Origin: an uncultured Candidatus Saccharibacteria bacterium
GTDB taxonomy: Bacteria; Patescibacteriota; Saccharimonadia; Saccharimonadales; Saccharimonadaceae
Reading direction: 5' to 3'
Assembly (NCBI GenBank): GCA_947302975.1
Contig: CAMYXA010000006.1
Span: 1 to 44,244 of the forward strand
DNA: 44,244 nucleotides
Both the position numbers and the translations under genes were made by a program. Shown here piece after piece: positions 3,403 through 44,244 of the stretch (positions within the stretch are counted from its first letter, which is position 1; every line of letters begins with the position of its first letter). The notes beneath the pieces are model-generated. The model made no database searches. It saw only the letters and a list, made by a program, of their open reading frames with translations, and was not told the DNA's origin.

Positions 3403-3408
3403 AAGCAT

Positions 3409-3414: not shown

Positions 3415-3419
3415 TAATA

Positions 3420-3451
3420 AAAAATAGCCTCCGTAAAGGAAGCTATTTTTG
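3420..3451 (-). terminator. Intrinsic terminator of the Asp-tail membrane protein gene
   Basis: On the minus strand the stem AATAGCTTCC/GGAGGCTATT has a 5-nt loop and is followed by a T-run, just 3' of the gene ending at 3465. Poly-A on the other side makes it potentially bidirectional. Confidence 0.8.
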
Positions 3452-3464
3452 TTAGACTCTCTTA

Positions 3465-4628: not shown

Positions 4629-4665
4629 TAAAAGAAATTCCTCGCTTTAATTTAATATTTGTTTC

Positions 4666-4674
4666 ATTATAGCA
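4666..4674 (-). promoter_or_regulatory. Extended -10 promoter of the Asp-tail protein gene
   Basis: Minus-strand TGCTATAAT about 37 nt before the ATG at 4628, giving a leader of about 30 nt that carries a GAGGA ribosome site. Confidence 0.6.
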
Positions 4675-4699
4675 CAAAAAATAAGCACGAGAATTTTAA

Positions 4700-6783
<2,084 letters not shown>

Positions 6784-6795
6784 ATTTTTTCCTTT

Positions 6796-9857: not shown

Positions 9858-9889
9858 TTTGATTTTGCCTCCTAATATACTTATGATTA

Positions 9890-9898
9890 ATTATAGCA
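9890..9898 (-). promoter_or_regulatory. Extended -10 promoter of the gapA operon
   Basis: Minus-strand TGCTATAAT about 32 nt before the gapA ATG; the short leader holds AGGAGG. Confidence 0.65.
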
Positions 9899-9922
9899 CA
9901 TAATGCTTTAGGTTATGCAACA

Positions 9923-9951
9923 AAAAATACCCCTTTTGAAGGGGCATTTTT
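9923..9951 (-). terminator. Intrinsic terminator of rpsL-rpsG
   Basis: Stem ATGCCCCTT/AAGGGGTAT with a 3-nt loop and T-run on the minus strand, 3' of the rpsG stop at 9963. The complementary strand also has a T-run. Confidence 0.85.
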
Positions 9952-9962
9952 GATTTTCACTA

Positions 9963-10442
9963 TTAACCGCGAGCAAAGTGTGCGAAGGCACGGTTTGCTT
10001 CGGCCATACGGTGACAGTCTTCTTTCTTCTTGAAGGCTGCACCAGCTTCGTTGTAAGCATCAACGATTTCAGCTTCAAGACGCTTTTCGTATGGCATGCC
10101 GCTGCGTGCGCGAGCGGATTGAACTAGCCATGAGAAGGCGAAGTGAAGTTGGCGGTGACCAGAGATTGGGAATGGAATTTGGTAGTTAGCACCACCGACA
10201 CGGCGGGATTTAACTTCAAAATCTGGTGAAACGTTTGCGATAGCTTTTTCGAGAACTTCGACTGGGTTTTCGCTTTTGAGTTTCTTGGCAGCGCCTTCGA
10301 TTGCAGCGTAAACTGCACGTTCAGCAGCTTGTTTCTTGCCATCAAGCATAGATTTGTTGATAAGGCGTTGAACCAAGATGGATTGGTACTTGCGATCTGG
10401 TGAGACTTTGCGCTCGAGGGATTTAGTAGTCTTGCGTGGCAT
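9963..10442 (-). CDS. rpsG: 30S ribosomal protein S7
   Basis: 159 aa. S7 nucleates assembly of the 30S head by binding the 3' major domain of 16S rRNA. MPRKTTKSLERKVSPDRKYQS at the start, then VQRLINKSMLDGKKQAAERAVY, KSRRVGGANYQIPF and the C-terminal HRMAEANRAFAHF identify it. It follows rpsL by 2 nt. Unlike most str operons, neither fusA nor tuf follows; a terminator comes directly after. Confidence 0.97.
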   Translation of the reverse strand: MPRKTTKSLERKVSPDRKYQSILVQRLINKSMLDGKKQAAERAVYAAIEGAAKKLKSENPVEVLEKAIANVSPDFEVKSRRVGGANYQIPFPISGHRQLHFAFSWLVQSARARSGMPYEKRLEAEIVDAYNEAGAAFKKKEDCHRMAEANRAFAHFARG

Positions 10443-10444
10443 AA

Positions 10445-10858
10445 TTACTTATCCTCCTTTTTAGCACCGTATTTAGAACGGCCTTGTTTGCGGCCTTGGA
10501 CACCTTGAAGATCGAGGGTACCACGGACGATGTGATAACGGACACCTGGAAGATCTGGAACACGACCACCACGGACAAGCACGACTGCGTGCTCCTGGAG
10601 GTTGTGGCCTTCACCACCGATGTATGCCCAAACTTCCTGACCGTTGGTTAGGCGGACACGTGCAACTTTACGCATAGCTGAGTTTGGTTTCTTTGGAGTT
10701 TTGGTGGTTACTTTGATACAAACGCCACGTTTCAAAGGAGCAGCTTGATCATAGTAACGAGTCTTCAGCGTGTTGACGATTGAGCCAAGAGCTGGAGCTT
10801 TCGATTTTTTCGCAGCACTCTTGCGAGGTTTGCGAATCAATTGATTGATAGTTGGCAC
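10445..10858 (-). CDS. rpsL: 30S ribosomal protein S12 with insertion and K88P-type change
   Basis: 137 aa from a GTG start, with AGGA upstream. S12 lines the decoding centre. [11 protein letters not shown] (Lys57, equal to E. coli Lys43) and [11 protein letters not shown] are conserved. Two features stand out. About 13 extra residues lie between PALG and KRGVC relative to E. coli. The E. coli GRVKDLPG loop reads GRVPDLPG, so the position equal to Lys88 is Pro101 (codon CCA, 10558-10556). Changes at Lys88 are classic streptomycin-resistance sites, so natural reduced sensitivity is possible but inferred. Asp102, the RimO methylthiolation site in other bacteria, is kept. Confidence 0.97.
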
Positions 10859-10890
10859 AGTGAAAATATCCTGTTTAGTTAATAATTTGT

Positions 10891-10922
10891 CTCAGTTTTT
10901 TAATACAGCAATAAAAACTGAG
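10891..10922 (-). promoter_or_regulatory. Perfect 10-bp inverted repeat in the rpsL leader
   Basis: CTCAGTTTTT and AAAAACTGAG are separated by 12 nt, between the TATAAT at 10940-10945 and the GTG. No T-run follows in the rpsL direction, so it is not a terminator. A ribosomal-protein autoregulatory site is possible but unproven. Confidence 0.45.
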
Positions 10923-10939
10923 GTGAAACTCTTTCATAG

Positions 10940-10945
10940 ATTATA
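10940..10945 (-). promoter_or_regulatory. -10 box of the rpsL-rpsG operon
   Basis: Minus-strand TATAAT preceded by CGC, about 80 nt before the GTG start. Confidence 0.6.
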
Positions 10946-10970
10946 GCGCAAAACGCTTAATAATGCAAGA

Positions 10971-10996
10971 AAAAGAGCCCCGTTTGGGACTCTTTT
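10971..10996 (-). terminator. Intrinsic terminator of the orphan gene at 11014
   Basis: Stem AAAAGAGTCCC/GGGGCTCTTTT with a short loop, ending in T's on the minus strand. Confidence 0.8.
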
Positions 10997-11013
10997 AAAA
11001 TTCGGGACGTGAC

Positions 11014-11760
11014 TTAGGGTTTTTGGCTGTTCTTGAACTCTGCCAAGATCTTACAGATTAAAGGATTGGTTCTGAATTCATCATTCCAGATTTCGACCGT
11101 AATAAACCTTTGATTAGCTTCGTTTCGGTTGTTTTCTGCGATTGCAAGAACTTTTGCTACCAGAATCAGGTAGTTTTCTGGTAGAGTTTTAAACTCAAGG
11201 CTTGATCTTAATCCTTCCAACTTTAATTTGTAGTCCTTTGCCGAGCCACTTAAACTACTAAATTCCGGAATCATGATTTCTAATTCCTTAGTTACGAAGA
11301 TTGAGCATTTTAGCGAGGCGATATCGGAAGCAATTCTTCTTAGGATTACATCTCCTGTAATTTTTTTGCTGTCTTCGATAATTTTTTCAAGTCTTTCTGC
11401 ATCTTCTGGGCAAAGACTACATTTGTCGTCGAGGGTTATGTTTTTAATTTTGTTCGCTTCGTCAATGATAAGACTGGCGATTTCTCTATCCACATTATAA
11501 CTTAACTGAAAATCACGCAGCTGCTTATATCTCGAACCAAGATCGTAGAAATCCCACTTATTTTTTGTGGTTCTTTCTTTGAGAATATTCTCATTGTGCT
11601 TGATCTTGATATATTCAAGTGCTTTTTCCAATCTTTTTACACTGCCGGAGAGATCATTCATAAAGTCATCACTTAGAAGTGTTTTTTTCTTCTGTTTTGA
11701 ACCATCTTTAACCCTTCGTAGCCCCAAATTACTTATAAAAGTACTGTCTATTTTGGTCAT
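11014..11760 (-). CDS. Hypothetical protein, helical
   Basis: 248 aa from the ATG at 11760, chosen because AAGGAGGTGA sits 5-6 nt upstream; a longer in-frame reading from 11781 would place that site inside the gene. I do not recognise the family. The sequence is rich in Lys, Glu, Ile and Leu with long predicted helices. It has no signal peptide or transmembrane helix, and a pair of nearby cysteines (CSLCPED) that is too sparse for a zinc finger. It has its own promoter (TGTTATAAT at 11796-11804) and terminator. The near-perfect Shine-Dalgarno contrasts with the leaderless core genes and groups it with other orphan genes of the window. Confidence 0.75.
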   Translation of the reverse strand: MTKIDSTFISNLGLRRVKDGSKQKKKTLLSDDFMNDLSGSVKRLEKALEYIKIKHNENILKERTTKNKWDFYDLGSRYKQLRDFQLSYNVDREIASLIIDEANKIKNITLDDKCSLCPEDAERLEKIIEDSKKITGDVILRRIASDIASLKCSIFVTKELEIMIPEFSSLSGSAKDYKLKLEGLRSSLEFKTLPENYLILVAKVLAIAENNRNEANQRFITVEIWNDEFRTNPLICKILAEFKNSQKP

Positions 11761-11795
11761 AACCTCACCTCCTTGAACCAAAAAAGAATATTTAT

Positions 11796-11804
11796 ATTAT
11801 AACA
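11796..11804 (-). promoter_or_regulatory. Extended -10 promoter of the orphan gene at 11014
   Basis: Minus-strand TGTTATAAT, about 35 nt before the ATG at 11760, with AAGGAGGTGA in the leader. Confidence 0.6.
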
Positions 11805-11910
11805 TATCTACCACAGATTTTCAATTTTACTGAGGAGAATATTGAAAATTTAAGCATTTTGTGGTATAATAGGAAGGTTGAACTAAAAAAATAGAAATGG
11901 GGTGATGGTT

Positions 11911-12627
11911 TTGTTCAAAGCAGTTTTTAAACATGATTTCACAATGGTTCACACACAAGGGAGCGATGCGGAATATGATGTCGACTTCCAAAGGTTAGAC
12001 GAGAGTGGCGTAGCTGGGCAAGAGGAGCGACTCGGAAGAATCCTTCATGTTTGCAAGGAGAATTATCTTCCAATCGACAAGATTGCGACGGTTCGACCTA
12101 TGTCGGAATTTGAAGGGCGCTCCCTGATCAGAGTTGTTTGCGATGGCGACAGGGACGTTTTTTCTCCGGTGCCCTGCAGTGCAGTGCTCACGCTTAACCC
12201 AAAAGTAACTTTGATTGGGTTGGCATCGGATGAGTGTCTATTTGCGCTGGTTGGCAAGACTCCGGATTCAAAACACACCGTCGCACGCGTTCTTGGCTGC
12301 ATGCCGCCTGCTACGTCTGATATAGTTCTGCGTGCAGTTAATGAGCTGTGTAGTCTCGATATTTCGCCGTCCAATATGGAGCTACATATTGGCGCTGCGC
12401 TCGGAAAATGTCATTCTGAATATGATTATTCGAACAAGGTTTTCGAGATTGCGGCTCACGCTGGCGTGGGACACATCGATTATTTCTTCGAGTCCGACAG
12501 CCGCTGCACGTATTGTGCGAAATATGCTAACGGCAGCTATAAGTTCTTTTCTAAGGCTCGAGCCGCGAGTGAACCAGGAATCAGTATTCAGGGATGTAAT
12601 GCTTTTATTCTTGGCATTGAATCGTGA
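11911..12627 (+). CDS. Hypothetical protein with C-terminal Cys pair
   Basis: 238 aa if it starts at the TTG at 11911, which lies 6 nt after GGGGTG; in-frame GTG (11902) and ATG (11905) codons overlap that ribosome site and are less likely. Family not recognised. It is a soluble mixed alpha/beta sequence with ITVRPMSEFEGRSLIRVV-like strands in the middle (as IATVRPMSEFEGRSL) and a CTYC motif near residue 205. A TATAAT promoter is at 11865-11870. It ends with TGA just before a strong bidirectional terminator shared with tig. No neighbour suggests a role. Confidence 0.7.
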   Translation: MFKAVFKHDFTMVHTQGSDAEYDVDFQRLDESGVAGQEERLGRILHVCKENYLPIDKIATVRPMSEFEGRSLIRVVCDGDRDVFSPVPCSAVLTLNPKVTLIGLASDECLFALVGKTPDSKHTVARVLGCMPPATSDIVLRAVNELCSLDISPSNMELHIGAALGKCHSEYDYSNKVFEIAAHAGVGHIDYFFESDSRCTYCAKYANGSYKFFSKARAASEPGISIQGCNAFILGIES

Positions 12628-13961: not shown

Positions 13962-15540
13962 TAATCCGAGGGGTTTTGGTAGTTTTGAGGTGTTTTAGGG
14001 TGAATGTGTTGTCGGCGCCAAGTTTGACGTCTGGATTCATGATATTGTTCGGATCAAAGGCGGCTTTGATTTCTTTATAGAGGGCTTTTTCTTCTTGACT
14101 CATGAATTTATTAGTTACGAGGGCCTTGACGCGGCCCTCTGGAGTTCCGCCTGCGATTGACCCTTCTTGCCTCCTGATAATAATATCCATAGCCTGAAGG
14201 AAGGCAGCAAAGCGTTGCTCGAACTTTGGATCGGTGGTTTTGAATTTTGGACGGATGCTGTAATTCGAGGTGGCGAAGGAACCAAAGATTGGCAAGTCCA
14301 TGCGGAGTTTTGGCTCAAGTTCGGCGAGATCTTTCAAGAAATTCACGAGATTGTTGGCTGGGAGATAGAAGTTGGATGCGAGCGGAATACGTTCGCCGTC
14401 TGATGGAAGATTCAAATAGCTTTCGATGGAATTCTCGAATTCATCAATGATTGACTCGGTTTCGGCGGAGTCGATGATGTAGCTTGAAGTTGATGGAATA
14501 TATTTTACGCATTCGCGGATTTTTTTGTTGGAGCGAAGTGATTTCTCGTTGAAGCTCACAAAAACAGCGTAACCGGACTGGAGCTTCCTGGTAATTTTTG
14601 ATAGGTTCTTGCCGGATTCTTCGGCGGTTCTTAGGATTCTCAGGTCAATAACGTTTAGTTCGAGTGGTTTTTCTTTGACGACGTTGGAGAGGAAGTTGAT
14701 GGTAGACTTCAAACTACTGAAGGTTGCGACCATGCGCGCAGAGCGTGGCTGCAATACTTCGGCATGAATAATGACTTCGGAAATGATGCCGAGCGAGCCT
14801 TCGGATGAGAATAGGAGTGGCAATAGATCGATGGAATTTTTCTTTATAGCGTATGGAACTGATGAATAACCCGCAGCGCTGACGCTCTCGTTTTTAATCT
14901 TTTCGAGCAAGGTAGCGTTTTTGTCGGCAAGAGCGGATAGTCTTTGGTAGATTTTCCCCTCAAGGGTTTTCTCGCTAGCTTTTTTGGAGATAGCATGAGA
15001 ACCGAGGCGGCCGGTCTGGATACATTCTCCGTTTGCGAGAACAATTTCGGCGCGCTCAATGAAGCGCATGATGCCACCGTATTTTGCGGCGTAGTTATCT
15101 GTTGGACAGTTTGCGATGAGGCTGCCGATAGTTTCGTTGTCATTAGCTTTGACTGGCAGCGTCAAACCACTGACCTTCAGAGCGGTATTTAATTCCTTCA
15201 AAGTGATGCCAGCTTGTACGCGAACTAGACGCTCGCGGGTGTCGATTTCTTCTAGATGATTGAGCTTTTCGGTTGAAATAATAATACCAGTAGAGAGATC
15301 TGCACCTACCTCATCAAGACCGGATCCACGAGCAGTGACTGGGACACGAATATTTTTCTCGGATAATTGATGGAAAAACTTGGCGAGCTTTTGAATATCG
15401 GCCGTAGACTCTGGAAAAGCGACGAGCTTTGGGGTGATTTTGAGAGCAGATTGGTCGGTTGAATATTTCTCAAGAATTTCTGGAGCATCAAATACATTGC
15501 CAGTGATTAATTGGTTCAAATATTTGGTGATCTTGCTCAT
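13954..15540 (-). CDS. FAD-binding oxidoreductase, GlcD/D-lactate dehydrogenase-like
   Basis: 528 aa. The N-terminal FAD_binding_4 (PCMH) domain shows VTARGSGLDEVGADLSTGI and RVQAGITLKELN with TIGSLIANC. The C-terminal part is of the FAD-oxidase C type and ends with PNNIMNPDVKLG, close to the FDPxxILNPGK ending of glycolate/D-lactate dehydrogenases. Members oxidise 2-hydroxy acids, passing electrons to quinone or another acceptor; the substrate is not identifiable here. No transmembrane helix or Fe-S motif is visible. A TGCTATAAT box lies 9 nt upstream of ATG, so the leader is at most 2-3 nt. Confidence 0.88.
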   Translation of the reverse strand: MSKITKYLNQLITGNVFDAPEILEKYSTDQSALKITPKLVAFPESTADIQKLAKFFHQLSEKNIRVPVTARGSGLDEVGADLSTGIIISTEKLNHLEEIDTRERLVRVQAGITLKELNTALKVSGLTLPVKANDNETIGSLIANCPTDNYAAKYGGIMRFIERAEIVLANGECIQTGRLGSHAISKKASEKTLEGKIYQRLSALADKNATLLEKIKNESVSAAGYSSVPYAIKKNSIDLLPLLFSSEGSLGIISEVIIHAEVLQPRSARMVATFSSLKSTINFLSNVVKEKPLELNVIDLRILRTAEESGKNLSKITRKLQSGYAVFVSFNEKSLRSNKKIRECVKYIPSTSSYIIDSAETESIIDEFENSIESYLNLPSDGERIPLASNFYLPANNLVNFLKDLAELEPKLRMDLPIFGSFATSNYSIRPKFKTTDPKFEQRFAAFLQAMDIIIRRQEGSIAGGTPEGRVKALVTNKFMSQEEKALYKEIKAAFDPNNIMNPDVKLGADNTFTLKHLKTTKTPRIML

Positions 15541-15549
15541 ACTTAATTT

Positions 15550-15558
15550 ATTATAGCA
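15550..15558 (-). promoter_or_regulatory. Extended -10 of the FAD oxidase gene
   Basis: Minus-strand TGCTATAAT, 9 nt before ATG, so a near-leaderless transcript. Confidence 0.6.
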
Positions 15559-15566
15559 CGCGAAAA

Positions 15567-15594
15567 CAAAAAGGCCCCCAGAATTTGGAGGCCC
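15567..15594 (-). terminator. Intrinsic terminator of the GGDEF gene
   Basis: GGCCTCCA/TGGGGGCC stem (one mismatch) followed by a T-run on the minus strand, 3' of 15603. Confidence 0.8.
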
Positions 15595-15602
15595 ATTAAA
15601 GG

Positions 15603-16796
15603 CTATCTTTGATCAGTTTTGCTGTTGTATTTGCAAATACAGTTCCTATGCTTATCCTTGGCACGTTGGAGCGCTTGGTCGGCACTGTCTACGCAGCGGC
15701 GAACACGATCTTCGGCGGATTCATCCGGAAGTCTATCGCTCGATTCAAATACCGAATAGCCAACACTCACGGTCACAAATCTTTCGGCGTGACGATCCCG
15801 AGGAATAAATGACTCCGGGTGAGCTTCGATGAAATCGCCAGTCTTTTGGAACTCGATTTCGGCCTTCCTAATGGCTTTAACGCAGTCGTCCACGATTCCA
15901 GCTATGGTATTTCGAGCATAGAATCCGTTGACAATAAAACAGAATTCTTCACCGCCATAACGCACGAGCTCGACGTTATACTTCTTGAGTGCGGATGATA
16001 GAGCCTCCGCCACCCCTTGGATTGCCTCATCGCCTTTGGGATGACCATATTGAGTATTGAATTGTTTGAAGAAATCAATATCAAACATGGCCGCACCGAT
16101 ATCATCGCTAGAACCGAATGACTTATAAAGTTTTTCATTCAAATAGCGACGGTTACGGATTCCGGTTAGGCCGTCGATGAAACCTTTTTCTTGAAGCAAA
16201 AGATTGTAGCTGATGCTATCAATCTGACGTTTCAGTTTTTCTTGCCCAATAAAGATGCTCAGGCAAACGCAAACTGAAAGTTGGATTGAGTTTCTGAAAA
16301 TTGTTGCATCATCCACTCCGACAGCCGATTCGAGACAAACGAATGTCGTGAGCGCTACCACTAAAACCGGGACAACAGCGCACATCGGCATAATGAATAC
16401 TAGCGATGACATGGCAAGGAAGGTCGCAAAAATGGCAATTGAATCAGAATCTTTTAGAACAACTTTTTGGGTAATTATGAACGCGAATATGACGATAACT
16501 GATGCTGTAACCAGAATTGGTGCATACTTTCCTTCGTCTTTTCTCGCACGATATGCCGCGAACGACAAGAGAATAAATGTGAAGGTAAAGAATGCATAGT
16601 AGACTCTGGCTTTAGTATAAAACTCCAGGAACATTGAGAGGATCGTGAGTACAATCAAGACGAGGCTAAAAATCATGTCGACTCTAAGCAACATCTTAGA
16701 ATTGTATGCGTTGATCGTCTGTTTGTTCTCCAGGAAGAATTTGTCGTCTTTTCCGCCATAACACCAAGCTTTTATCGTTGTGAGCATTTTGGACAT
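15603..16796 (-). CDS. Membrane diguanylate cyclase (GGDEF domain)
   Basis: 397 aa from the ATG at 16796, which follows GGGGGTGA by 4-5 nt; an in-frame ATG at 16814 would overlap the site. About six transmembrane helices (roughly residues 40-195) precede a GGDEF domain with DGLTGIRNRRYL, FDIDFFKQFNTQYGH and RYGGEEF (about residue 279). The GGEEF form is compatible with making cyclic di-GMP from two GTP. The inhibitory RxxD site is absent (KYNV at that place). The N-terminal membrane part probably senses an unknown cue. The strong ribosome site, leader of tens of nucleotides and taxonomic oddity of c-di-GMP signalling in such a reduced genome suggest acquisition. No EAL, HD-GYP or PilZ partner is in the window. 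Confidence 0.9.
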   Translation of the reverse strand: MSKMLTTIKAWCYGGKDDKFFLENKQTINAYNSKMLLRVDMIFSLVLIVLTILSMFLEFYTKARVYYAFFTFTFILLSFAAYRARKDEGKYAPILVTASVIVIFAFIITQKVVLKDSDSIAIFATFLAMSSLVFIMPMCAVVPVLVVALTTFVCLESAVGVDDATIFRNSIQLSVCVCLSIFIGQEKLKRQIDSISYNLLLQEKGFIDGLTGIRNRRYLNEKLYKSFGSSDDIGAAMFDIDFFKQFNTQYGHPKGDEAIQGVAEALSSALKKYNVELVRYGGEEFCFIVNGFYARNTIAGIVDDCVKAIRKAEIEFQKTGDFIEAHPESFIPRDRHAERFVTVSVGYSVFESSDRLPDESAEDRVRRCVDSADQALQRAKDKHRNCICKYNSKTDQR

Positions 16797-16887
16797 GTTT
16801 TCACCCCCTTTCATGACCAAAAATAGCCTTCTTAATGTTCTATAATTACACCACCACTATTATCTTGAATTGATTGTAACACAGGTT

Positions 16888-16893
16888 TATAAT
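16888..16893 (+). promoter_or_regulatory. -10 box of the ABC exporter operon
   Basis: TATAAT 13 nt before the ATG at 16907, giving a leader of only about 6 nt. Confidence 0.55.
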
Positions 16894-16906
16894 AATTCCT
16901 TAGGTT

Positions 16907-18670
16907 ATGTTTAGATTGTTCAAATTTTTGTCTAAAAAAGATTATTTAAAGCTGTTTTTTGCGGTGGTTTTGATTGTCTTTCAGGTTTGGTTAGATCTTC
17001 GTATGCCGGATTATATGTCCGATATTACGGTTCTTGCACAAACTGAAGGCTCGGAGATGTCTGAGATTTTGAAAAACGGTGGGTTCATGCTCGCATGTGC
17101 TGGCGGTAGCCTCGTAGCTATGATTGCGGTGGGCTATCTTGCGGCCAGTATTTCGGCGAATTTTGCTGCAACGGTTAGTCGCGAACTATTTATGAAGGTT
17201 GAACGCTTAGGGCTTTCCGAGATCCAGAATTTCTCGACGAGCAGTCTTATTACTCGCACAACGAATGATGTTTCCCAAGTCCAGATGTTTATTGCGATGG
17301 GAACGCAACTTCTCATTAAGTCACCAATTACGGCAGTTTGGGCTATCACAAAAATCCTCGGCAAGAACTGGGAGTGGAGTTTAATGACGGCTGGCGCGGT
17401 GGGGATTTTGCTTGTAGCGATTATCTTGATTTTGATTTTCGTTTTGCCGAAGTTTAAGAAGGTTCAGAAGTTAACTGATAAATTAAACGGTATCACACGC
17501 GAGAATCTTTCCGGTATTCGTGTTGTGCGCGCGTTCAATGCGGAGAAATATCAAGAGAACAAGTTTGATCATGCCAACTCTAATCTTGCGAAGACTCAAC
17601 TTTTTACGCTCCGTGCGTTTGCCTTCTTGTCGCCACTCATGTACCTCGTAATTCATTTCTTAGTATTGTTTATATATGTAGTCGGTGCTTACCTAATTGA
17701 TGCTGCTAATATGCTCGACAAGATTTCGCTATTTGGCGACATGGTGGTTTTCTCGTCTTACGCAATGCAAGTAATCATGTCGTTCTTGATGCTTGCGATG
17801 GTCTTCATGATTATGCCTCGCGCGCAGGTCTCGGCGAGACGTATCAATGAGGTGCTCGAGACTAAGGAAGTTTTGAAAGATGGCACGAAGACTGCTGCGG
17901 ACGCCAAATCTCGTGGCTCGGTCGAATTTAAAAATGTGAGTTTTTCTTATAGTGGCGCAAAAGAGCCGGTTCTTAAAAATATTTCCTTCTCGGCTCAGAC
18001 TGGTGAAACCGTGGCATTTATTGGTGCGACTGGATCCGGAAAATCTACCCTAGTTAATTTAATCCCCCGTTTCTTTGATGCGACGAAGGGTAAGGTTCTT
18101 GTCGATGGAATTGATGTTCGCGAATATAAACAGTCTGAACTTCGTAATTTGATTGGTTATGTTTCGCAGAAGGCTGTTTTATTTGATGGCACCGTGAAAT
18201 CTAATATTAAATATGGTGATAACGGCAAGGCTGAGGCAAAAGATGAGAAGGTCCTCGAAGCGCTTGATGTAGCCCAGGCCAAAGACTTTATCATGAAGAT
18301 GCCTGACCAGCTCGATTCGCATGTGGCTGAAGGTGGTACGAACTATTCTGGCGGGCAGAAACAACGCCTTTCGATTGCACGTGCGATTGCTAGGGATCCT
18401 GAAATTTATATCTTTGATGATACTTTCTCGGCACTCGACTATAAGACCGATGCAGTACTTCGAAAAGAGCTTAAGAAACACACCAAGGATGCAACCGTTC
18501 TCATTGTTGCGCAGCGTATCGGTACAATCATGAATGCAGATAAGATTATCGTCCTGGAGGACGGCAAATGCGTTGGCATGGGCAAACATAAAGAGCTTTT
18601 GAAATCCTGCCCAGTCTATCGCCAGATTGCTGAGTCACAACTTTCGCCGGAGGAACTAAAAAATGCCTAG
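16907..18670 (+). CDS. ABC exporter subunit A (TMD-NBD fusion, degenerate ATP site)
   Basis: 587 aa. About six transmembrane helices are followed by a nucleotide-binding domain with Walker A GATGSGKST (about residue 373), signature SGGQKQRLSIARA (about 480) and Walker B IYIFDD. The catalytic Glu after Walker B is Asp (FDD), as in the degenerate subunit of heterodimeric exporters such as LmrCD, BmrCD and TM287/288. It overlaps the next gene by 8 nt, so the two half-transporters are made together. The likely function is export of drugs, lipids or peptides. The substrate is unknown. Confidence 0.92.
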   Translation: MFRLFKFLSKKDYLKLFFAVVLIVFQVWLDLRMPDYMSDITVLAQTEGSEMSEILKNGGFMLACAGGSLVAMIAVGYLAASISANFAATVSRELFMKVERLGLSEIQNFSTSSLITRTTNDVSQVQMFIAMGTQLLIKSPITAVWAITKILGKNWEWSLMTAGAVGILLVAIILILIFVLPKFKKVQKLTDKLNGITRENLSGIRVVRAFNAEKYQENKFDHANSNLAKTQLFTLRAFAFLSPLMYLVIHFLVLFIYVVGAYLIDAANMLDKISLFGDMVVFSSYAMQVIMSFLMLAMVFMIMPRAQVSARRINEVLETKEVLKDGTKTAADAKSRGSVEFKNVSFSYSGAKEPVLKNISFSAQTGETVAFIGATGSGKSTLVNLIPRFFDATKGKVLVDGIDVREYKQSELRNLIGYVSQKAVLFDGTVKSNIKYGDNGKAEAKDEKVLEALDVAQAKDFIMKMPDQLDSHVAEGGTNYSGGQKQRLSIARAIARDPEIYIFDDTFSALDYKTDAVLRKELKKHTKDATVLIVAQRIGTIMNADKIIVLEDGKCVGMGKHKELLKSCPVYRQIAESQLSPEELKNA

Positions 18671-20447
18671 TCCATTTAACGTAGAGAAACCACAAGGAAA
18701 AGATTCATTCTTCAAGAACATTAAGCGCTTCGTGAGCGAACTTAAGTCGTTTAACTTTGTGATTCTGTTTGCGCTCGTAATGGCGGCAAGTTCATCGATT
18801 CTTTCGATTATTGCGCCGGATCATTTATCTGAGCTCACTGACACAATTCTCGCTGGATTTTTCACCGGTGTTGATTTTAATAAGATTCGCGAGATTTTGA
18901 TCTTCCTTACCGTTGTTTATATTCTTAGCGCACTTCTCGATTTTCTAACGTCGTTCATTATGGCTGGCGTTTCGAATAGCTTCGTCAAGAAACTTCGCAC
19001 GCGCATTTCGAAAAAGATTAATCGTCTACCGCTTCGATATTTTGATGAACACCAGACTGGTGATATCCTCTCGAGAGTAGTGAACGATGTGGATATGATG
19101 GGTCAATCGACGCATCAGGCATTCTCCGTGTTGGTGTCTGCATTCACGCTGTTTATCGGCACACTTATTATGATGTTTATCACCAACTGGCAGATGGCTT
19201 TAACGGCGCTCGTTGCGTCACTGATTGGTTTTGGATTCGTTGGCTCAATTCTTTCGAAGTCGCAAAAATACTTCACAGCTCGTCAGAAAGAGCTCGGCCG
19301 CATGAATGCGCACATTGAAGAGATTTATTCTGGAATCAATGTCGTGAAGGCTTACAATGGCGAAATTGAGTCAAACAAGAAGTTTAATCGTTTGAATGAG
19401 CGCGTACGCAACGCGAACCTCAAGAGTCAGTTCCTCACCGGCATCATGATGCCGCTCATGGGCTTTATTGGTAACTTTGGGTATGTTGCAGTTTGTGTCG
19501 TCGGTGCAGTGTTAGCTCGCGAGGGTGTTATTTCCTTTGGCACGATTGTGGCTTTCATGGTTTATATTCGCATGTTCACCTCTCCACTCAATCAAATTGC
19601 ACAAGCGCTCAGTAGTCTCCAGGCTACCGCTGCTGCGACCGAACGCGTATTTGAATTCTTGGATGCCCCAGAAATGCCAGACGAGAAGGATTTGAGCGCT
19701 GAGGTTCACGCCGAAAAGATTGCCGGAAAAGTCGACTTCTCGCATGTCAAATTTGGCTACAAGAAAGATAAAGAGATTATTCATGATTTCAGTATTTCCG
19801 TGAAACCTGGCCAGAAAGTTGCTATCGTTGGCCCAACTGGCGCTGGAAAGACTACACTCGTGAATTTGCTCATGAAGTTTTACGATCTTGATGGCGGCGC
19901 AATCTTGATTGATGATGTGCCAATCTCGGAGATCAAGAGAAGTGATGTCCATTCATTATTTACGATGGTCCTTCAGGATACTTGGATGTTTGAGGGATCA
20001 CTCAAGGAAAATATCGTCTATAACCGCAAGAATGTATCAGATGAGAAGGTGATGGGAGTGCTCGATAAGGTTGGCTTGAAACATTTCGCCAATTCCCTCC
20101 CAAATGGAATTAATTCCGACATTTCCGAGAACGATTCTGTTTCGGCTGGCCAAAAGCAGCTTATTACGATTGCTCGCGGTTTGATTGAGGATGCGCCGCT
20201 TCTAATTCTTGATGAGGCGACCTCAAATGTTGATACTCGCACCGAAGAAAAAGTTCAGCGCGCGATGGATGAACTAATGAAAGGGCGCACCTCATTCGTA
20301 ATTGCGCACAGACTTTCGACGATTAAAAACGCTGACCTTATCTTGGTTCTAAAGAATGGTGATATTGTTGAAAGTGGCACACATAAGTCTTTGCTTAGGG
20401 CTAGTGGTGCGTATGCGGAACTCTATAACTCACAATTTAGTCAATAA
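18663..20447 (+). CDS. ABC exporter subunit B (TMD-NBD fusion, canonical Walker B)
   Basis: 594 aa with N-terminal transmembrane helices and a C-terminal nucleotide-binding domain. Walker A is GPTGAGKTT (about residue 389) and Walker B is LLILDEATSNVD with the catalytic Glu. The signature reads SAGQKQLITIARG in place of LSGGQ. The pairing of Asp in subunit A with a non-standard signature in subunit B is what forms the single degenerate site of heterodimeric exporters. GGAGG lies 8 nt before the ATG inside the upstream gene. A strong terminator follows. Confidence 0.93.
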   Translation: MPSPFNVEKPQGKDSFFKNIKRFVSELKSFNFVILFALVMAASSSILSIIAPDHLSELTDTILAGFFTGVDFNKIREILIFLTVVYILSALLDFLTSFIMAGVSNSFVKKLRTRISKKINRLPLRYFDEHQTGDILSRVVNDVDMMGQSTHQAFSVLVSAFTLFIGTLIMMFITNWQMALTALVASLIGFGFVGSILSKSQKYFTARQKELGRMNAHIEEIYSGINVVKAYNGEIESNKKFNRLNERVRNANLKSQFLTGIMMPLMGFIGNFGYVAVCVVGAVLAREGVISFGTIVAFMVYIRMFTSPLNQIAQALSSLQATAAATERVFEFLDAPEMPDEKDLSAEVHAEKIAGKVDFSHVKFGYKKDKEIIHDFSISVKPGQKVAIVGPTGAGKTTLVNLLMKFYDLDGGAILIDDVPISEIKRSDVHSLFTMVLQDTWMFEGSLKENIVYNRKNVSDEKVMGVLDKVGLKHFANSLPNGINSDISENDSVSAGQKQLITIARGLIEDAPLLILDEATSNVDTRTEEKVQRAMDELMKGRTSFVIAHRLSTIKNADLILVLKNGDIVESGTHKSLLRASGAYAELYNSQFSQ

Positions 20448-21984: not shown

Positions 21985-22005
21985 TGGTGCTGGAAGTAGG
22001 ACTCG
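21985..22005 (-). repeat. Direct repeat of the tRNA-Tyr 3' end
   Basis: A 21-bp exact copy of 22050-22070 (tRNA T-loop to CCA), 65 bp downstream of it in the tRNA direction. There is no 5' half, so it is not a second tRNA. In between, GGTGCT and AGGAC are complementary to parts of this copy and of the tRNA 3' end. Confidence 0.85.
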
Positions 22006-22049
22006 TTCGCGAAGCGCCGATGTCCTGATTTTTAAGCACCTTATCAAGG

Positions 22050-22134
22050 TGGTGCTGGAAGTAGGACTCGAACCTACGAAGGCCGAAGCCGAGAGATTTA
22101 CAGTCTCTTGTCATTGCCACTAGACGATTCCAGC
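22050..22134 (-). tRNA. tRNA-Tyr (anticodon GTA)
   Basis: On the minus strand the acceptor GCTGGAA pairs with TTCCAGC, the anticodon loop CTGTAAA carries GTA, a long variable arm CGGCTTCGGCC is present (class II, as in bacterial tRNA-Tyr), the T loop is GTTCGAGTC, and CCA is encoded. Promoter TGTTATAAT lies 8 nt upstream. Confidence 0.96.
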
Positions 22135-22219: not shown

Positions 22220-23419
22220 ATGATTAAAGTTTGTGCGGATAAAACGTTGGGGATTTGGCAGGGCTATGGTGGCGCATTCACGGAAGCTACAGCCTATAAT
22301 TTTGCAATGCTCTCAAACGAGAAACAAACTCGACTTCTCGATGCTTATTTTGGGAATGATGGTACTGGATATACTTGGGGTCGCGTTTCGATTGGTAGCA
22401 ATGATTTTTGTCTTGAGCCGTTTGAATATATTGATCCTGAAAATCCTGAAGAGTTTTCAATTGAGCATGATGAAAAATATGTAATTCCGATGATCTGGAA
22501 GGCCCAGGCCTATGCCGATTTGACGCTCGTAGCGAGCCCATGGTCTCCACCTAGTTTCATGAAAAATAATAGACGTCTTCAGGAAGGCGGCAAGCTTCTT
22601 AGGCGTTATTACCGCCTCTATGCTGAGTATTTGAACCGCTGGATCGACGAATATGCCCGGAACGAAATCAAGATCAATTATCTTACTCCCCAAAATGAAC
22701 CAATGGCGAAGCAACTTTGGGAGTCTTGTAGATTTTCATTCCGTGCGCAGAAGAAATTTGCATATAAATACCTTACGCGCGAGCTAGATGACACGAGGAT
22801 CCTCATGTGGGACCACAATAAGTCTAAGTTGTCTCAGGTCGCGAAGAAGCTATTAAAACATGCGCCAAAAGACGTGGCTGGTCTTGCATTCCATTGGTAT
22901 GATGGGACGTTTGAAGATGAGTTATATGAAGCTCGCAAGAAGTTCCCTAATTCTATCTTCATCAGTAGTGAAATGTGCTGTGGTTTTTCTGAATATGACA
23001 CTGAGGAATGGAAGAAAGACGCCGCACTCTATGCAAACGAGATCTTGAATGATATTAACTCTGGCGCTAATGCTTGGATTGATTGGAATATGCTCCTAGA
23101 TTATAATGGTGGCCCGACTTATTGCGACAACAACGTCAAAAGCCCAGTAATTTTGAATAAACGTGGAGATGACTTTATTCTTACGCCAATCTATAAGACA
23201 ATTCAGCAGATTACGCATGCAATTCCGGCTGGCAGTAAGATTATTCGACTCGAGAATGATTATAAAGATCTAGCTGCAGCGGCTAAGATTGATGGAAACG
23301 GCATCCAGGTTCTTGTTGCGAATGTTTCTTCCGAAGAAAAGGACTTCGTTATTGAATATAACGGTCGACACTTTGGTGGGACAATCAGAGGGTACGGATT
23401 TATAACTATCGACCTATAA
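22220..23419 (+). CDS. Glycoside hydrolase family 30 (glucosylceramidase-like beta-glycosidase)
   Basis: 399 aa. The GH30 barrel is clear: WQGYGGAFTEATAYN, GSNDFCLEPF and ASPWSPPSFMKNN, then TPQNEP with acid/base Glu160, FHWYDG, ISSEMC with nucleophile Glu251, and a C-terminal beta domain. Family members hydrolyse beta-glucosyl, beta-xylosyl or related linkages by a retaining mechanism. There is no signal peptide or membrane segment, and the leaderless ATG lies only 12 codons before the first barrel motif, so the enzyme appears cytoplasmic, whereas many GH30 enzymes are secreted. That implies imported small glycosides as substrates, which is inference. It is a stand-alone unit with no sugar transporter next to it. 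Confidence 0.9.
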   Translation: MIKVCADKTLGIWQGYGGAFTEATAYNFAMLSNEKQTRLLDAYFGNDGTGYTWGRVSIGSNDFCLEPFEYIDPENPEEFSIEHDEKYVIPMIWKAQAYADLTLVASPWSPPSFMKNNRRLQEGGKLLRRYYRLYAEYLNRWIDEYARNEIKINYLTPQNEPMAKQLWESCRFSFRAQKKFAYKYLTRELDDTRILMWDHNKSKLSQVAKKLLKHAPKDVAGLAFHWYDGTFEDELYEARKKFPNSIFISSEMCCGFSEYDTEEWKKDAALYANEILNDINSGANAWIDWNMLLDYNGGPTYCDNNVKSPVILNKRGDDFILTPIYKTIQQITHAIPAGSKIIRLENDYKDLAAAAKIDGNGIQVLVANVSSEEKDFVIEYNGRHFGGTIRGYGFITIDL

Positions 23420-29938: not shown

Positions 29939-32071
29939 ATGGTAATAGACTTGCATGGCGTTTATTATGTAACATTCGGTGTCATAATGGTGCTCGGTCT
30001 CTACATGATGTCACAGTATATCGGCGTAAAGAGACTGAGTGAAGGTACCAAGGCTATGAGCGAACTCGCAGCAAGCATTCGTTCAGGCTCAATGGTATTC
30101 ACAAAAGGGACGTTCCGTGTCATTCTGATCGTAGCAGCTGTCCTGGCTGCCATTATTTCATTTGCAATAGAGCTTGGCGCTGGAGCAGCATTCCTCTTGG
30201 GTCTTACTATGACGACTATCTCTGTCATAGTGGGAATGAGCGTTGCTACCTACGCTAACGTTCGTGCATGTGCGACAGCAAAAAAAGGCGTCGAAGACAA
30301 TTTAAAGGATTCTCAGATTTGTGCTCGCACGGTTAACGTAACTATCAAAGCATCACAGATTTGCGGGATCATCGTTCAATCGACATCCTTACTCGGATTG
30401 ACTATTACTACCATGCTGAGCCAGGATTCACCACTTATTCCGAACGCGCACGGCATCATTCCGCTCGTTGCGAGATTGACTGCATATTCAATCGGTTGGA
30501 GTATTGTTGCGATGTTCTGCCGTGTTGCTGGTGGAATTTTCACCAAAGCAGCAGATATTGGCGCAGATCTTATCGGAAAGGTATTCATGCACTTCGCTGA
30601 AGATGATCCGAGAAACCCTGCCGTTAAAGCTGATTTTGTCGGTGACAATGTTAACGATGTTGCTGCCAACCAGGCCGATCTCGGCGAGTCCTTTACAGCA
30701 ACTCCGGTCACAACCATCATTACTGCTATCACCCTTTATGGTAATGATAATCCCGCAATGCTGGTTGCAGCAATTTCCTATCCGTTCATGCTTGCACTTA
30801 GCGGATTAATCTCTGCTGCTATCGGTCTCTTCTATGCATCTCATGCAAAAGAGAGCGATAAGCCTGAGAAGCAGATCAATGCCTCGATGTATATTGCTGC
30901 TGCAGGCACTCTGATCGCGAGCCTTGCGATTTCGTATTTTGTCTTTAGAAAGATCGGAACTCCTGCTGATTTTAGATTCGGCTGGCTTTCAACCTTCCTA
31001 AGTACCCTTTGCGGTGTTATCTCGGGCGTATCGGTCGGATTAATTGCAGAGCATTTTACAAGTCTTGAAGGCAAATGGGCCGTAAGTGTTTCTGAAATGG
31101 CAAAAAGAGGCTCAGCCCTCTGTGCTTCCCAGTCTCAGGCGGCCGGATGGATCTCATGTTTGCCGGAAATGCTTGTAGTAGGTATTTTCTCTTATGCATC
31201 ATCTATCATCGCTGGCCCTTATGGACGTTCCGTAATGGCGCTTGGTATGTTGGCATTCGTTGCTCAGGCAATCGGCGTAGATGCATTCGGTCCGATCTCA
31301 GATAATGCCGGCGGTATCGCCGAGAGCTGTCATCTTGATCCCAGAGTTAGAGTAATAACCGACAAAAACGACTCGGCAGGAAATATGACGGCTGCTATCG
31401 GAAAGGGCTTTGCTATAAGCTCCGCTTTTGCGGTTGTAGTATCACAGACGCAGACATATGTTAGGGCATATGGCGGAGACTCACTTAACTTCATGGACGA
31501 CAAGGTCTCAATTGGTCTCACCATAGGTGTTGGTCTTTGCGCGCTGTTCTGTGGCCTGCTTGCACTCTATACGCTTATTGCAGCTGACGAAATGGCAGCA
31601 GAATGTAGAAGGCAGTTTAAAGATCCTGATGTCGTATCTGGTAAAAAACTCCCTGACTCGAACAAATGCATCAACATCGCAAGAGTAAACGGCATGAAGA
31701 AAATGATTTGGCCAGTATCTATCGCCGTCGGATCTACTCTTGCCGTTGGCTTCGGTCTTGGACCTGAGTCGATGGGAGGCATGTTGGTAGGTGCGACATA
31801 TATTGGCGTACCTCTGGCAATTTTCTTCAGCAACGCTGGCGGTCTGGCGGATAACGCCAAGAAGCGCTTTGAAGCAAATCTCGTGGCAGGTCTTACAAAA
31901 GACATGCCGGAATACATTTCTGCGCATGACGCCGCCGTGGTGGGCGACACGATGGGCGACTGGATGAAAGACGTCGTTGCAGTGTCCATAGATATCTTCA
32001 TAAAGATTATGGGTACACTTGCTCTGATGCTTGCTCCTATGTTTGCGCAGTATCAGCTTCTCCCGTTCTAG
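29939..32071 (+). CDS. hppA: Membrane-bound pyrophosphatase (cation-pumping), divergent
   Basis: 710 aa with about 16 transmembrane helices. It couples PPi hydrolysis to H+ or Na+ export across the cytoplasmic membrane. The hydrolytic site is recognisable: GADLIGKV (about residue 205), EDDPRNPAV (221), GDNVNDVAANQADL (234), and near the C-terminus FFSNAGGLADNAKK and VVGDTMGDWMKD. GNMTAAIGKG has Ala where K+-independent enzymes have Lys, suggesting K+ dependence. Several usually fixed residues differ (GKVF for GKVE, GDNVNDVAAN for GDNVGDVAGM), so it is a divergent branch. AAAGGAGAG precedes ATG; start and length are well supported. A strong terminator follows. Confidence 0.92.
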   Translation: MVIDLHGVYYVTFGVIMVLGLYMMSQYIGVKRLSEGTKAMSELAASIRSGSMVFTKGTFRVILIVAAVLAAIISFAIELGAGAAFLLGLTMTTISVIVGMSVATYANVRACATAKKGVEDNLKDSQICARTVNVTIKASQICGIIVQSTSLLGLTITTMLSQDSPLIPNAHGIIPLVARLTAYSIGWSIVAMFCRVAGGIFTKAADIGADLIGKVFMHFAEDDPRNPAVKADFVGDNVNDVAANQADLGESFTATPVTTIITAITLYGNDNPAMLVAAISYPFMLALSGLISAAIGLFYASHAKESDKPEKQINASMYIAAAGTLIASLAISYFVFRKIGTPADFRFGWLSTFLSTLCGVISGVSVGLIAEHFTSLEGKWAVSVSEMAKRGSALCASQSQAAGWISCLPEMLVVGIFSYASSIIAGPYGRSVMALGMLAFVAQAIGVDAFGPISDNAGGIAESCHLDPRVRVITDKNDSAGNMTAAIGKGFAISSAFAVVVSQTQTYVRAYGGDSLNFMDDKVSIGLTIGVGLCALFCGLLALYTLIAADEMAAECRRQFKDPDVVSGKKLPDSNKCINIARVNGMKKMIWPVSIAVGSTLAVGFGLGPESMGGMLVGATYIGVPLAIFFSNAGGLADNAKKRFEANLVAGLTKDMPEYISAHDAAVVGDTMGDWMKDVVAVSIDIFIKIMGTLALMLAPMFAQYQLLPF

Positions 32072-41832: not shown

Positions 41833-42497
41833 TTCATTTCTCCATCTGCGATATGAATTTGACGCTGGCATTTTTTAGCAAGATCCTCATCGTGGGTCAC
41901 AATGATAAGTGTGACACCTTTTTTGTTGAGGTCGAAGAGTAGCTTCTCGACCTTGGCACCGGTTGCGGAGTCGAGGTTGCCTGTTGGCTCATCGGCAAAG
42001 ATTACTTTTGGATTATTGACGATGGCGCGAGCAATACAAACGCGCTGTTTTTGACCACCGGAAAGGTTATTGGCCTTATTCATAGCTTTTTCTTCAAGCC
42101 CAACAACTTTCAAGGCTTCCATAGCAAGCTTTTTGCGAGCGCGACGACGAGTGCCAGAAATCTTGAGCGGTAAAAGCACATTGTTTAGGACGGTATCGTT
42201 CGCGTTCATAAAGAACTGCTGGAACACGAAGCCAAAATAACGGTTCCTCATCTTATTGAGTTGGCGAGGCTTCAATTTGGTCGAGTTGACACCATTGATA
42301 TAGATGGAGCCGCTGGTTGGCTTATCGAGAAGCGCCAACAGGTGCATTAAGGTTGATTTTCCTGACCCGGATTTCCCAACAATGGCAACCGATTCGCCCT
42401 CGAATATTTCCAGGTCGATGTCTTTTAGAGCACGAAAGGCTGCGCTTTTCTTGCCGTAGGTCTTCGACAAGTTTTTGGTTGTGATAATTGATTTCAT
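41829..42497 (-). CDS. MacB/LolD-type ABC transporter ATP-binding protein
   Basis: 222 aa. Walker A is GKSGSGKST, the signature NNLSGGQKQRVCIARA, Walker B VIFADEPTGNLDS and the H-loop IIVTHDEDLA; the LDKPTSGSIYINGVN stretch is typical of the LolD/MacB branch. It powers the permease encoded directly downstream (4-nt overlap). Start placed by TACAAT 6 nt upstream, again leaderless. The stop is TGA. Confidence 0.94.
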   Translation of the reverse strand: MKSIITTKNLSKTYGKKSAAFRALKDIDLEIFEGESVAIVGKSGSGKSTLMHLLALLDKPTSGSIYINGVNSTKLKPRQLNKMRNRYFGFVFQQFFMNANDTVLNNVLLPLKISGTRRRARKKLAMEALKVVGLEEKAMNKANNLSGGQKQRVCIARAIVNNPKVIFADEPTGNLDSATGAKVEKLLFDLNKKGVTLIIVTHDEDLAKKCQRQIHIADGEMK

Positions 42498-42503
42498 TAG
42501 AAT

Positions 42504-42509
42504 ATTGTA
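42504..42509 (-). promoter_or_regulatory. -10 box of leaderless ABC ATPase gene
   Basis: Minus-strand TACAAT, one base from consensus and preceded by TGC, 6 nt before the ATG. Confidence 0.55.
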
Positions 42510-42530
42510 GCATTTTTAAGCTCTTTATGC

Positions 42531-42536
42531 TATAAT
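42531..42536 (+). promoter_or_regulatory. -10 promoter of tRNA-Ala
   Basis: TGCTATAAT ends 9 nt before the tRNA 5' end. Confidence 0.65.
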
Positions 42537-42545
42537 TATGGAGCT

Positions 42546-42621
42546 GGGGCATTAGCTCATTTGGTAGAGCGCTTCCATGGCATGGAAGAGGTGAGGAGTT
42601 CGAATCTCCTATGCTCCACCA
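42546..42621 (+). tRNA. tRNA-Ala (anticodon GGC)
   Basis: 76 nt with encoded CCA. Acceptor GGGGCAT pairs with ATGCTCC, including the G3-U70 wobble that specifies alanine; the anticodon stem CTTCC/GGAAG encloses ATGGCAT with GGC; the T loop is GTTCGAATC. Confidence 0.97.
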
Positions 42622-42653
42622 TTTTTTTATGCAATAAGAAAGTCAAAAACTAC

Positions 42654-42713
42654 AAAAAGTGGAGCTCGGATTTCGCCTCGATCAGTGCGAACCTCCTATG
42701 CTCCACTATTTTT
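42654..42713. terminator. Bidirectional hairpin holding a degenerate copy of the tRNA-Ala 3' end
   Basis: AGTGGAGC (42658-42665) pairs with GCTCCACT (42700-42707), flanked by A's and T's on both sides, so it can terminate both tRNA-Ala and the convergent surface-protein gene. The loop is long (34 nt), unusual for an intrinsic terminator. Confidence 0.55.
42684..42709 (+). repeat. Degenerate repeat of the tRNA-Ala 3' end
   Basis: 22 of 26 bases match 42596-42621 (T loop to CCA), 88 bp further on. There is no 5' half of a tRNA in front of it. Confidence 0.75.
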
Positions 42714-42714
42714 C

Positions 42715-44244
42715 TTATCTTGCTACACAGCGGACGGTTCCAGTGTTGAGAATACTGCCATTACTAGGACTGTAGGGATAAACAGCCCCGTCATTCATTC
42801 GGCTTACCCTCGCGGCGGCATTATAGTTATTCCAATGGCTATAGTCCCCCATATAATTCGACCAATAAGTCGCATAAAGCATATCATAGTAAAGCCAAGG
42901 GTCGTAAGGCTGAAAATAACCATTAAATACAACCTTGAAGATTCTTGAATTTATAAATGCAATATATTCTTGTTGTGTTCTATTCGGAGAGTAGGCATCA
43001 AGAAGGGCACCGAAGGATTTTGGAGCCGCTGAAAGAACAGTGTTATTGTCACCCAATACATATTCGCCTTCCGGCAGAGACCATCCCTTCGGACAAATCG
43101 AATTGTAAAGGTGAACATTGTAGCCGCCGCTGTCGTAAGCATAATCACCAGTTGAAGCGGCCCTGAACATATATGCAATACCAGGATCTTCCCACAGATA
43201 TTCATCTGTTGTGTCAGTTGGAGCAAGCGCCCCTCCGTCGCCATTTAGATAATACCGTCTGACCCCAGTCGTAGTGGTGTGATAGAAGGAAAGATCCATA
43301 TTGCCAGTTTGTTGTCGTGTTCCGTATGGACTACTATAAATATTCATGTTTTCTGTATTACGATTAGGAGTCCAAGAATCCTTGGTGTTCAAATCTGTAT
43401 CGGCACTAGTCAAAGTTTCGCTGGTTGAAAGCTTGAGTGCTAAGTTTTGCGTCATCCAACATTCACCATCTGCAAGTTTTGCAACAAGGTATTTTGTATT
43501 ATCGCGACTATCAAGCAAAACCTTTCTTGGAATATAATTACTGTCTCCATAATGCGAGCCGTCCCAGTCGTCATTCCCTGCCGTCGCGAGACTGCCAATT
43601 GGCGTAGTAGTATTAGTACAGATTTGTGGAGTCATTTCTTGCATGTAGGTAATAGTATGCAGAGATGGCAAAAGGGCATTCACTGTACAGGTTGTATTAT
43701 CCGTAACGTTATTAACTGTTACGGTACCATTCGAAATTGAAGCAGTTTGGCCATTTGTGCAACTAACATTTGGAATGAATACGTATTGGTCGTCGGCTAC
43801 AAGATTTTCGAAAGTAGCATTTGTCCCCTTATTTACCGTGACTGTGCCGCTTCCGGAGCCGCGATTTACGACAAGTTCGACATCGTAGGTAATCGGAGCC
43901 GTAGTGATAGTACAGACTGCATTAGAGGTAATATTGTTTACTTCATAAGAATTATTTGTCGTAATAATTTGCTGTCCATTCGTACAAGAACCACCAGTGA
44001 TCTTAAACATATCGGTGTGGAAATCAAATGATGGATATGCGCCCGCAGTTCCTTCGTCCACAGTCCGACGGTCAATTTCGGTCCCATTTTGGTCGTTTAC
44101 GATAATCTCATGCTGATAATTAGCGGTAAATGATAGGTCAGAATAAACCTGAGAAGGATCGACTGTTACGTTTTCTTCACAGCCATATATGTCGGTGCCA
44201 GTCCAACACTTGAAGTAAGCAGTGTCCTTTGTTGGCTTATTCAA
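42715..44244 (-). CDS. Surface protein with Cys-bearing repeats and FISUMP-like C-terminal domain (5' end outside window)
   Basis: At least 509 aa; the frame is open to the window edge, so the N-terminus is missing. Two repeats of about 80 residues with paired cysteines are visible (GGSCTNGQ with NAVCTIT, and NVSCTNGQ with TTCTVN), preceded by an InlB-B-repeat-like segment. The last about 290 residues resemble the Fibrobacter paralogous domain (FISUMP): KYLVAKLADGECWMTQNL, YNSICPKGWSLP, YWSNY and a closing RCVA. It has high Thr/Asn/Ser and few Lys, typical of secreted CPR proteins. It could act in attachment to the host cell, which is inference. The stop lies directly beside the tRNA-Ala repeat hairpin. 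Confidence 0.8.
   Translation of the reverse strand: MNKPTKDTAYFKCWTGTDIYGCEENVTVDPSQVYSDLSFTANYQHEIIVNDQNGTEIDRRTVDEGTAGAYPSFDFHTDMFKITGGSCTNGQQIITTNNSYEVNNITSNAVCTITTAPITYDVELVVNRGSGSGTVTVNKGTNATFENLVADDQYVFIPNVSCTNGQTASISNGTVTVNNVTDNTTCTVNALLPSLHTITYMQEMTPQICTNTTTPIGSLATAGNDDWDGSHYGDSNYIPRKVLLDSRDNTKYLVAKLADGECWMTQNLALKLSTSETLTSADTDLNTKDSWTPNRNTENMNIYSSPYGTRQQTGNMDLSFYHTTTTGVRRYYLNGDGGALAPTDTTDEYLWEDPGIAYMFRAASTGDYAYDSGGYNVHLYNSICPKGWSLPEGEYVLGDNNTVLSAAPKSFGALLDAYSPNRTQQEYIAFINSRIFKVVFNGYFQPYDPWLYYDMLYATYWSNYMGDYSHWNNYNAAARVSRMNDGAVYPYSPSNGSILNTGTVRCVAR

Follow-up and report, generated by a model that had tools for sequence, protein, structure and literature searches.

The sequence behind the tRNA-Ala gene near the end of the window analysed here, a 44,244-nt stretch of DNA from an uncultured Candidatus Saccharibacteria bacterium, is one unit of a tRNA-bound, structured repeat family (type A) whose units of approximately 75 nt occur singly or in tandem. 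In each unit, a short hairpin located after the CCA end of the tRNA is followed by an A-run and by an enlarged T-arm, the 3' side of which is a copy of the unit's own tRNA with a fixed boundary at C56 and running to A76, and the 5' arm of which changes in step with, and pairs with, this copy. The family is real and structured, and represents a new and much enlarged variant of the kind of repeat found at tyrT of Escherichia coli. As to its origin, our leading account, put forward tentatively and with a little less than even confidence, is that of a non-autonomous repeat spreading along the 3' ends of tRNA genes within a single gut and rumen genus of Saccharibacteria.

The tRNA-Ala gene (GGC anticodon, CCA encoded; positions 42546-42621, forward strand, as are all parts of this element) is recognised by ARAGORN and RF00005 (61.3 bits), and its 5' acceptor strand reads GGGGCAT. 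Directly 3' of the CCA, the unit folds into an A/T hairpin formed by a T-run and its complement (hp1, 42622-42642) and then into the type-A core hairpin (hp2, 42653-42697), which comprises an A-run, the 5' arm, an inner hairpin and the start of the copy. This core is matched at E=1.9e-9 by R1, a covariance model built from 20 aligned core hairpins from which the Ala and Tyr elements of this genome were excluded. The copy of tRNA-Ala C56-A76 that provides the 3' arm (42688-42708) is identical to the gene (42601-42621) at 19 of 21 positions and lies within a 30-nt direct repeat (42597-42626 and 42684-42713; 90% identity) that includes, behind the copy, a T-run (42709-42713) like that found behind tRNA-Ala itself. 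The original prediction was that 22 of 26 bases of the T-arm and acceptor end recur at 42684-42709; they do recur, and our recount brings the figure to 23 of 26. Also as predicted, AGTGGAGC (42658-42665), the 5' arm of the long stem, is by sequence the exact complement of GCTCCACT (42700-42707) in the 3' arm, with which it pairs in the fold. The further proposal that AGTGGAGC matches the acceptor end of the tRNA has to be reversed, the octamer being complementary (7/8) to the 3' acceptor strand of tRNA-Ala. Positions 42653-42713 fold better than each of 200 shuffled sequences, both as RNA (z -4.52) and as DNA (z -4.66). The copy is not recognised as a tRNA, ARAGORN and RF00005 detecting the upstream gene alone in this stretch. 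No terminator-like site was found within 42400-42900, and the sole promoter-like site of this interval falls past the Ala unit. The sequence 3' of the element (42715-44244, reverse strand) carries an open reading frame of 509 amino acids devoid of Pfam match.

The same pattern was said to occur at a second tRNA, probably tRNA-Tyr, and such is the case: tRNA-Tyr (GTA; 22050-22134, reverse strand) is followed on its own strand by a type-A core (21996-22034; R1 match at E=0.0027, outside the training set) and by an exact 21-nt copy of its C56-A76 block, present as a direct repeat at 21985-22005. A gene encoding a glycosyl hydrolase family 30 protein (22220-23419, forward strand) adjoins tRNA-Tyr. 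Forty-three distinct tRNAs were called by ARAGORN in the stretches fetched from this genome, and the last 26 bases of the 42 with enough downstream sequence were scored against their own 250 downstream bases, with swapped tRNA-downstream pairs serving as the control. Scores of at least 17 were obtained for eight of the 42 (Ala-GGC, Arg-TCG, Asn, Lys-TTT, Ser-GCT, Ser-TGA, Tyr and Val-TAC) compared to one of 1716 swapped pairs, that one being a genuine Ala-TGC/Ile-GAT tandem; at a weaker threshold of 9, the corresponding numbers were 14/42 and 62/1716. The excess at the higher threshold excludes chance, as the original prediction had argued from two cases, and the search for further tRNAs followed by partial 3' copies, on which that prediction was to stand or fall, thus returned several. 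A second kind of unit is seen in the same genome (L010, L029, L023, L035 and L031), where the copied T-arm holds a longer insert in its loop and a recurring AGCGAGC-type sequence looks like the type-A core in reverse complement. By eye, many of the units of this genome that fall outside type A (Val, Glu-CTC, Gly-TCC, Asn and Gln) resemble a T-arm with an interrupted loop. Elsewhere in the window, a gene for an H+-translocating pyrophosphatase (29939-32071, forward strand) adjoins a tRNA-Val that has no 3' copy. The neighbourhood of tRNA-Arg(TCG) showed no conservation across the related MAGs drawn from a pyrG scan.

The family was first traced by using the Ser-GCT unit as a query against 60 genomes of the genus, which revealed the same layout behind many tRNAs. 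A covariance model of these elements, the other means of verification proposed at the outset, does detect homologues: R1 matches occur in 30 of the 60 genomes, at different tRNAs in different genomes, and, with the proviso that searches of more than 40 genomes used stricter filters which weak members can escape, in 3 of 121 genomes of a family sample (all of this genus, one of 61 genera) and 2 of 286 genomes of a phylum sample (both of this genus, one of 247 genera). Among the 87 matches from fetched loci for which positions were tabulated, some listed matches being omitted from the table, 74 have a same-strand tRNA no more than 250 nt upstream and three lie further off; the ten others have no called tRNA in their locus, in some instances due to contig ends or to a run of N. 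Of the 18 tRNA species that carry R1 matches, 16 have a best copy agreeing with the tRNA at 19 or more of 21 positions; the copies at Thr-TGT and Val-TAC do not match the adjacent tRNA. In the 77 matches with a tRNA, the copy is identical to its host at 21/21 positions in 49, at 18 or more in 62 and at 15 or fewer in 15. As at integrase sites, the C56-A76 direct repeat extends from the T-loop to the end of the tRNA, and it is exact in these 49 copies. In first units, the model mostly starts 17-22 nt from the tRNA, and 47 of the 58 intervening spacers contain a perfect inverted repeat of 5 bp or more, compared to 13% of shuffled spacers. Where a host tRNA has a variant of its own, the copy follows it (L052, CTCCCTCCC; L130; L134). 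Species both with and without the unit are seen, and unit-free sites at the same tRNA (L056, L058) retain the T-run that flanks the unit in L048.

Both the outer and the inner parts of the hairpin covary. Once 88 matches are aligned to the model, pairing is seen in 95% of the cells, two-sided changes are found in 11 of 13 pairs, and 183 cells show a double change compared to at most 26 in slid controls; this alignment leans towards the model, but the picture does not change for 20 sequences aligned independently of it (8/13 pairs). The outer pairs follow the host tRNA; the inner pairs, which are not dictated by it, covary nevertheless. Between the 5' arm and positions 59-64, Watson-Crick pairs average 4.30 of 6 for own copies and 3.22 of 6 for foreign copies, a difference reached in none of 2000 shuffles, and the same holds when one match per tRNA species is retained (n=18; 4.36 versus 3.07; 0/2000). 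A lenient score allowing bulges and G.U pairs scarcely separates own from foreign copies (8.5/10 versus 8.0/10). Unpaired inner positions are also conserved, with a G.G opposition in 50 of 71 cells and a T and a C in the internal loop. In the inner stem, G.U is found in 12 cells and A.C in two, which favours the tRNA-sense strand; all stems together, the two are about equally frequent (35 and 29 cells). The original description of a hairpin-built element holding T-arm and acceptor sequence is borne out, the type-A hairpin being an enlarged T-arm. Its characterisation as a minimal tRNA-like stem plus T-arm suits the Ala unit and some rod-like units and fails for most of the family, since type-A units lack the acceptor 5' strand and leave the copied acceptor 3' strand largely unpaired.

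Tandem copies and the relatedness of the inner cores bear on how the family is propagated. In a non-random set of 239 tRNA contexts, 15 contain at least two perfect 16-nt own copies, spaced for the most part by 62-88 nt, and steps near 75 nt recur, as in the identical Val units of L263. Seven of 59 pairs of units at different tRNAs of one genome share inner cores at least 94% identical, a number reached in none of 2000 label shuffles, although some of these pairs are counted twice owing to tandem copies. The Gln and Ser units of G012 have a common hp1 and inner core and copied tails proper to their respective tRNAs. These near-identical cores speak for exchange between tRNA loci. Against such exchange, cores at the same tRNA of different genomes are somewhat more alike than cores at different tRNAs (0.624 versus 0.576; 0/1000 shuffles, nine matches without a called tRNA being labelled by their copy), indicating that part of the distribution is vertical, with units inherited in place. 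Mean core similarity within genomes is not raised (311/1000 shuffles). No exact match to three core patterns was found in viral contigs.

The closest known relatives in terms of anatomy are the E. coli tyrT/tyrV repeats (RtT, RF00391), which, like type A, form tandem arrays downstream of a tRNA, every unit closing with the 3' end of that tRNA. In E. coli K-12, the terminal 19 nt of tRNA-Tyr, CCA included, recur exactly at +160, +338 and +516 behind tyrV, where rttR and tpr are annotated, and the sequence preceding the copy re-forms the T-stem around an enlarged loop, the same anatomy as in type A. The tyrT repeats differ in advancing by 178-nt steps, in being restricted to one tRNA and in having a copy that begins some bases later, whereas in type A the core is shared and covaries across 18 tRNA species, and a short hairpin follows the CCA. 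RF00391, which gave four matches in the E. coli control (L337), had none up to E=0.1 in L040, L004, L129, L224, L285 and L277 (four loci from this genus, two from another), nor any up to E=10 within 42500-42800 of the window. To our knowledge, the E. coli repeats have so far been an isolated oddity; the literature covered, which was partial and judged largely from listings, contained no account that we recognised of repeats of this type, whether from Saccharibacteria or Patescibacteria or, more broadly, at the ends of tRNA genes. REP/BIME sequences are short extragenic hairpins, single or in tandem, dispersed in one genome, from which type A differs by being bound to tRNA 3' ends and by carrying host-tRNA sequence. 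Integron attC sites are folded imperfect palindromes located 3' of short cassettes in head-to-tail arrays; type-A units are likewise folded, imperfectly palindromic and arranged head to tail, and two of their arrays contain an open reading frame (L224, L169), but the attC core sequence was not seen by eye, most units are empty, and no IntI-type integrase came to light with PF00589, which covers tyrosine recombinases generally. Finally, attachment sites targeting tRNAs, such as that of mycobacteriophage Ms6, whose 26-bp core spans the T-loop to the acceptor end (PMC1762012), resemble type A in that a direct repeat spans the T-loop through the 3' end of the gene, leaving an intact tRNA upstream. 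Type A differs from them in its insert of about 55 nt without integrase, its inverted copy of the T-arm side and the many tRNAs occupied per genome.

Genuine islands do occur next to some units. In L221, an island (14024-19956) encoding a serine recombinase, a DpnII endonuclease, D12 and N6 methyltransferases and a DUF2726 protein separates tRNA-Leu(GAG) from a type-A unit, the recombinase reading frame ending within the antisense of the tRNA 3' end, and a similar layout is found at tRNA-Gln(CTG) in L222. In L219, a 20-kb fetched stretch without tRNA, two adjacent large serine recombinases accompany a Ser-type unit, and the region (298-12255), which further encodes a Replic_Relax protein, a T4SS coupling-type ATPase, an amidoligase and MT-A70 proteins, is likely a conjugative or mobilisable island. 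Recombinase-free arrays with an open reading frame encode 101 amino acids in L224 and 258 in L169 and L223; neither the L224 nor the L223 product has a Pfam match, and the former was detected in no genome but its own (1/118). Beyond this genus, own copies scoring at least 14 follow 6 of 36 tRNAs in G073, a single contig from another genus (0/1258 swapped pairs, with neighbouring tRNAs masked), and 2 of 32 in G068, from a third genus (0/992). These units are larger than those of type A. At Val and Lys of G073, the copy also begins at C56, behind hairpins that by eye differ by paired changes; behind tRNA-Phe of the same contig (L285), both acceptor strands and an intact T-arm are copied without D or anticodon arm, making this copy a minihelix in sequence.

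Under the account we favour, the unit would be gained at tRNA after tRNA, each arrival duplicating the C56-A76 block of the new host, and would then grow and shrink in tandem by way of this 21-nt direct repeat, in a manner resembling the tyrT repeats of E. coli. The spread between tRNA genes, the duplication of the target block on arrival, a requirement for folding and joint transcription of unit and tRNA are all suggested rather than witnessed, and the absence of a recombinase tracking the family argues against spread: the genome under study encodes one tyrosine recombinase (PF00589), of a kind near-universal in the genus, and no large serine recombinase (PF07508; 0), as do several unit-rich genomes. 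With recombinase counts, compared by eye to R1 matches, out of step with units, no integrase can be assigned to the family, and the cognate recombinase expected of an attachment site was not found. Moreover, simple insertion with target duplication leaves the match of the 5' arm to each tRNA unexplained by itself. One arrangement that includes this match is a tRNA-anchored, integron-like platform in which the hairpin is the recombination site, the 5' arm is matched to the target T-arm and helps choose it, and any tRNA gene is a point of insertion, most cassettes being empty and some gene-bearing; we regard it as improbable. An unlikely alternative is a neutral DNA process, in which the tRNA 3' end undergoes partial tandem duplication, slippage keeps the copies identical and quasipalindrome template switching improves the hairpins. 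The tandem steps of about 75 nt agree with it, as does the observation by eye that the inner cores of some other units of the same genome, when read in reverse complement, correspond to type-A cores, the outcome expected of loop inversion, and template switching is reported to create and maintain hairpins (PMC8794818). Such switching should, however, repair the mismatches that type A conserves at fixed places, and a core shared by 16-18 tRNA species, together with near-identical cores at different tRNAs of one genome, needs transfer beyond local duplication.

Selection for an RNA, which we consider slightly less unlikely, would have the units co-transcribed with their tRNA and cut at successive CCA ends into hairpin RNAs of about 75 nt, similar to RtT. 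The strong covariation, the conservation of unpaired inner positions and the inner-stem bias towards the tRNA-sense strand all favour this possibility, and the anatomically similar tyrT repeats contain the annotated small RNA RttR. On the other hand, R1 is found in just half of the genomes of the genus and at differing tRNAs, the copied acceptor strand is exact despite being largely unpaired, an exactness the fold does not need, and G.U and A.C are about equal over all stems. The copies might instead be attR scars, the right ends of islands whose insides were deleted, in a genus where large-serine-recombinase islands use tRNA 3' ends (L221, L222 and, likely, L219), and the Ms6 core from T-loop to acceptor end (PMC1762012) offers a precedent. 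This reading is very improbable for the family as a whole: the L221 and L222 islands sit between the tRNA and the type-A unit and have their own shorter or degraded copy, type-A units are present in genomes devoid of any serine recombinase, and a shared covarying hairpin is unexpected of scars. It may nonetheless apply to some short, decayed copies, such as that of Ser-GGA in the genome under study. Chance similarity could account for nothing past short, weak matches of 8-9 bases and, refuted by the swapped-pair control, the covariance model matches and the fold z-scores, is given practically no weight. A retroviral-type primer site, a casposon-like target duplication and IS200/IS605 ends were likewise considered and provisionally set aside, there being no protein or end sequence in their favour among the data at hand.

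That we are dealing with a non-autonomous repeat remains the tentative preference. The presence of a tRNA 3' copy in these genomes is, alone, no sign of an integrated island. Up to 18 tRNA species of one genus are followed by repeats with an anatomy of the tyrT kind, and own 3' copies occur in two further genera of the family, a set of replicas large enough for asking how these repeats originate and whether their folded form serves as DNA or as RNA.
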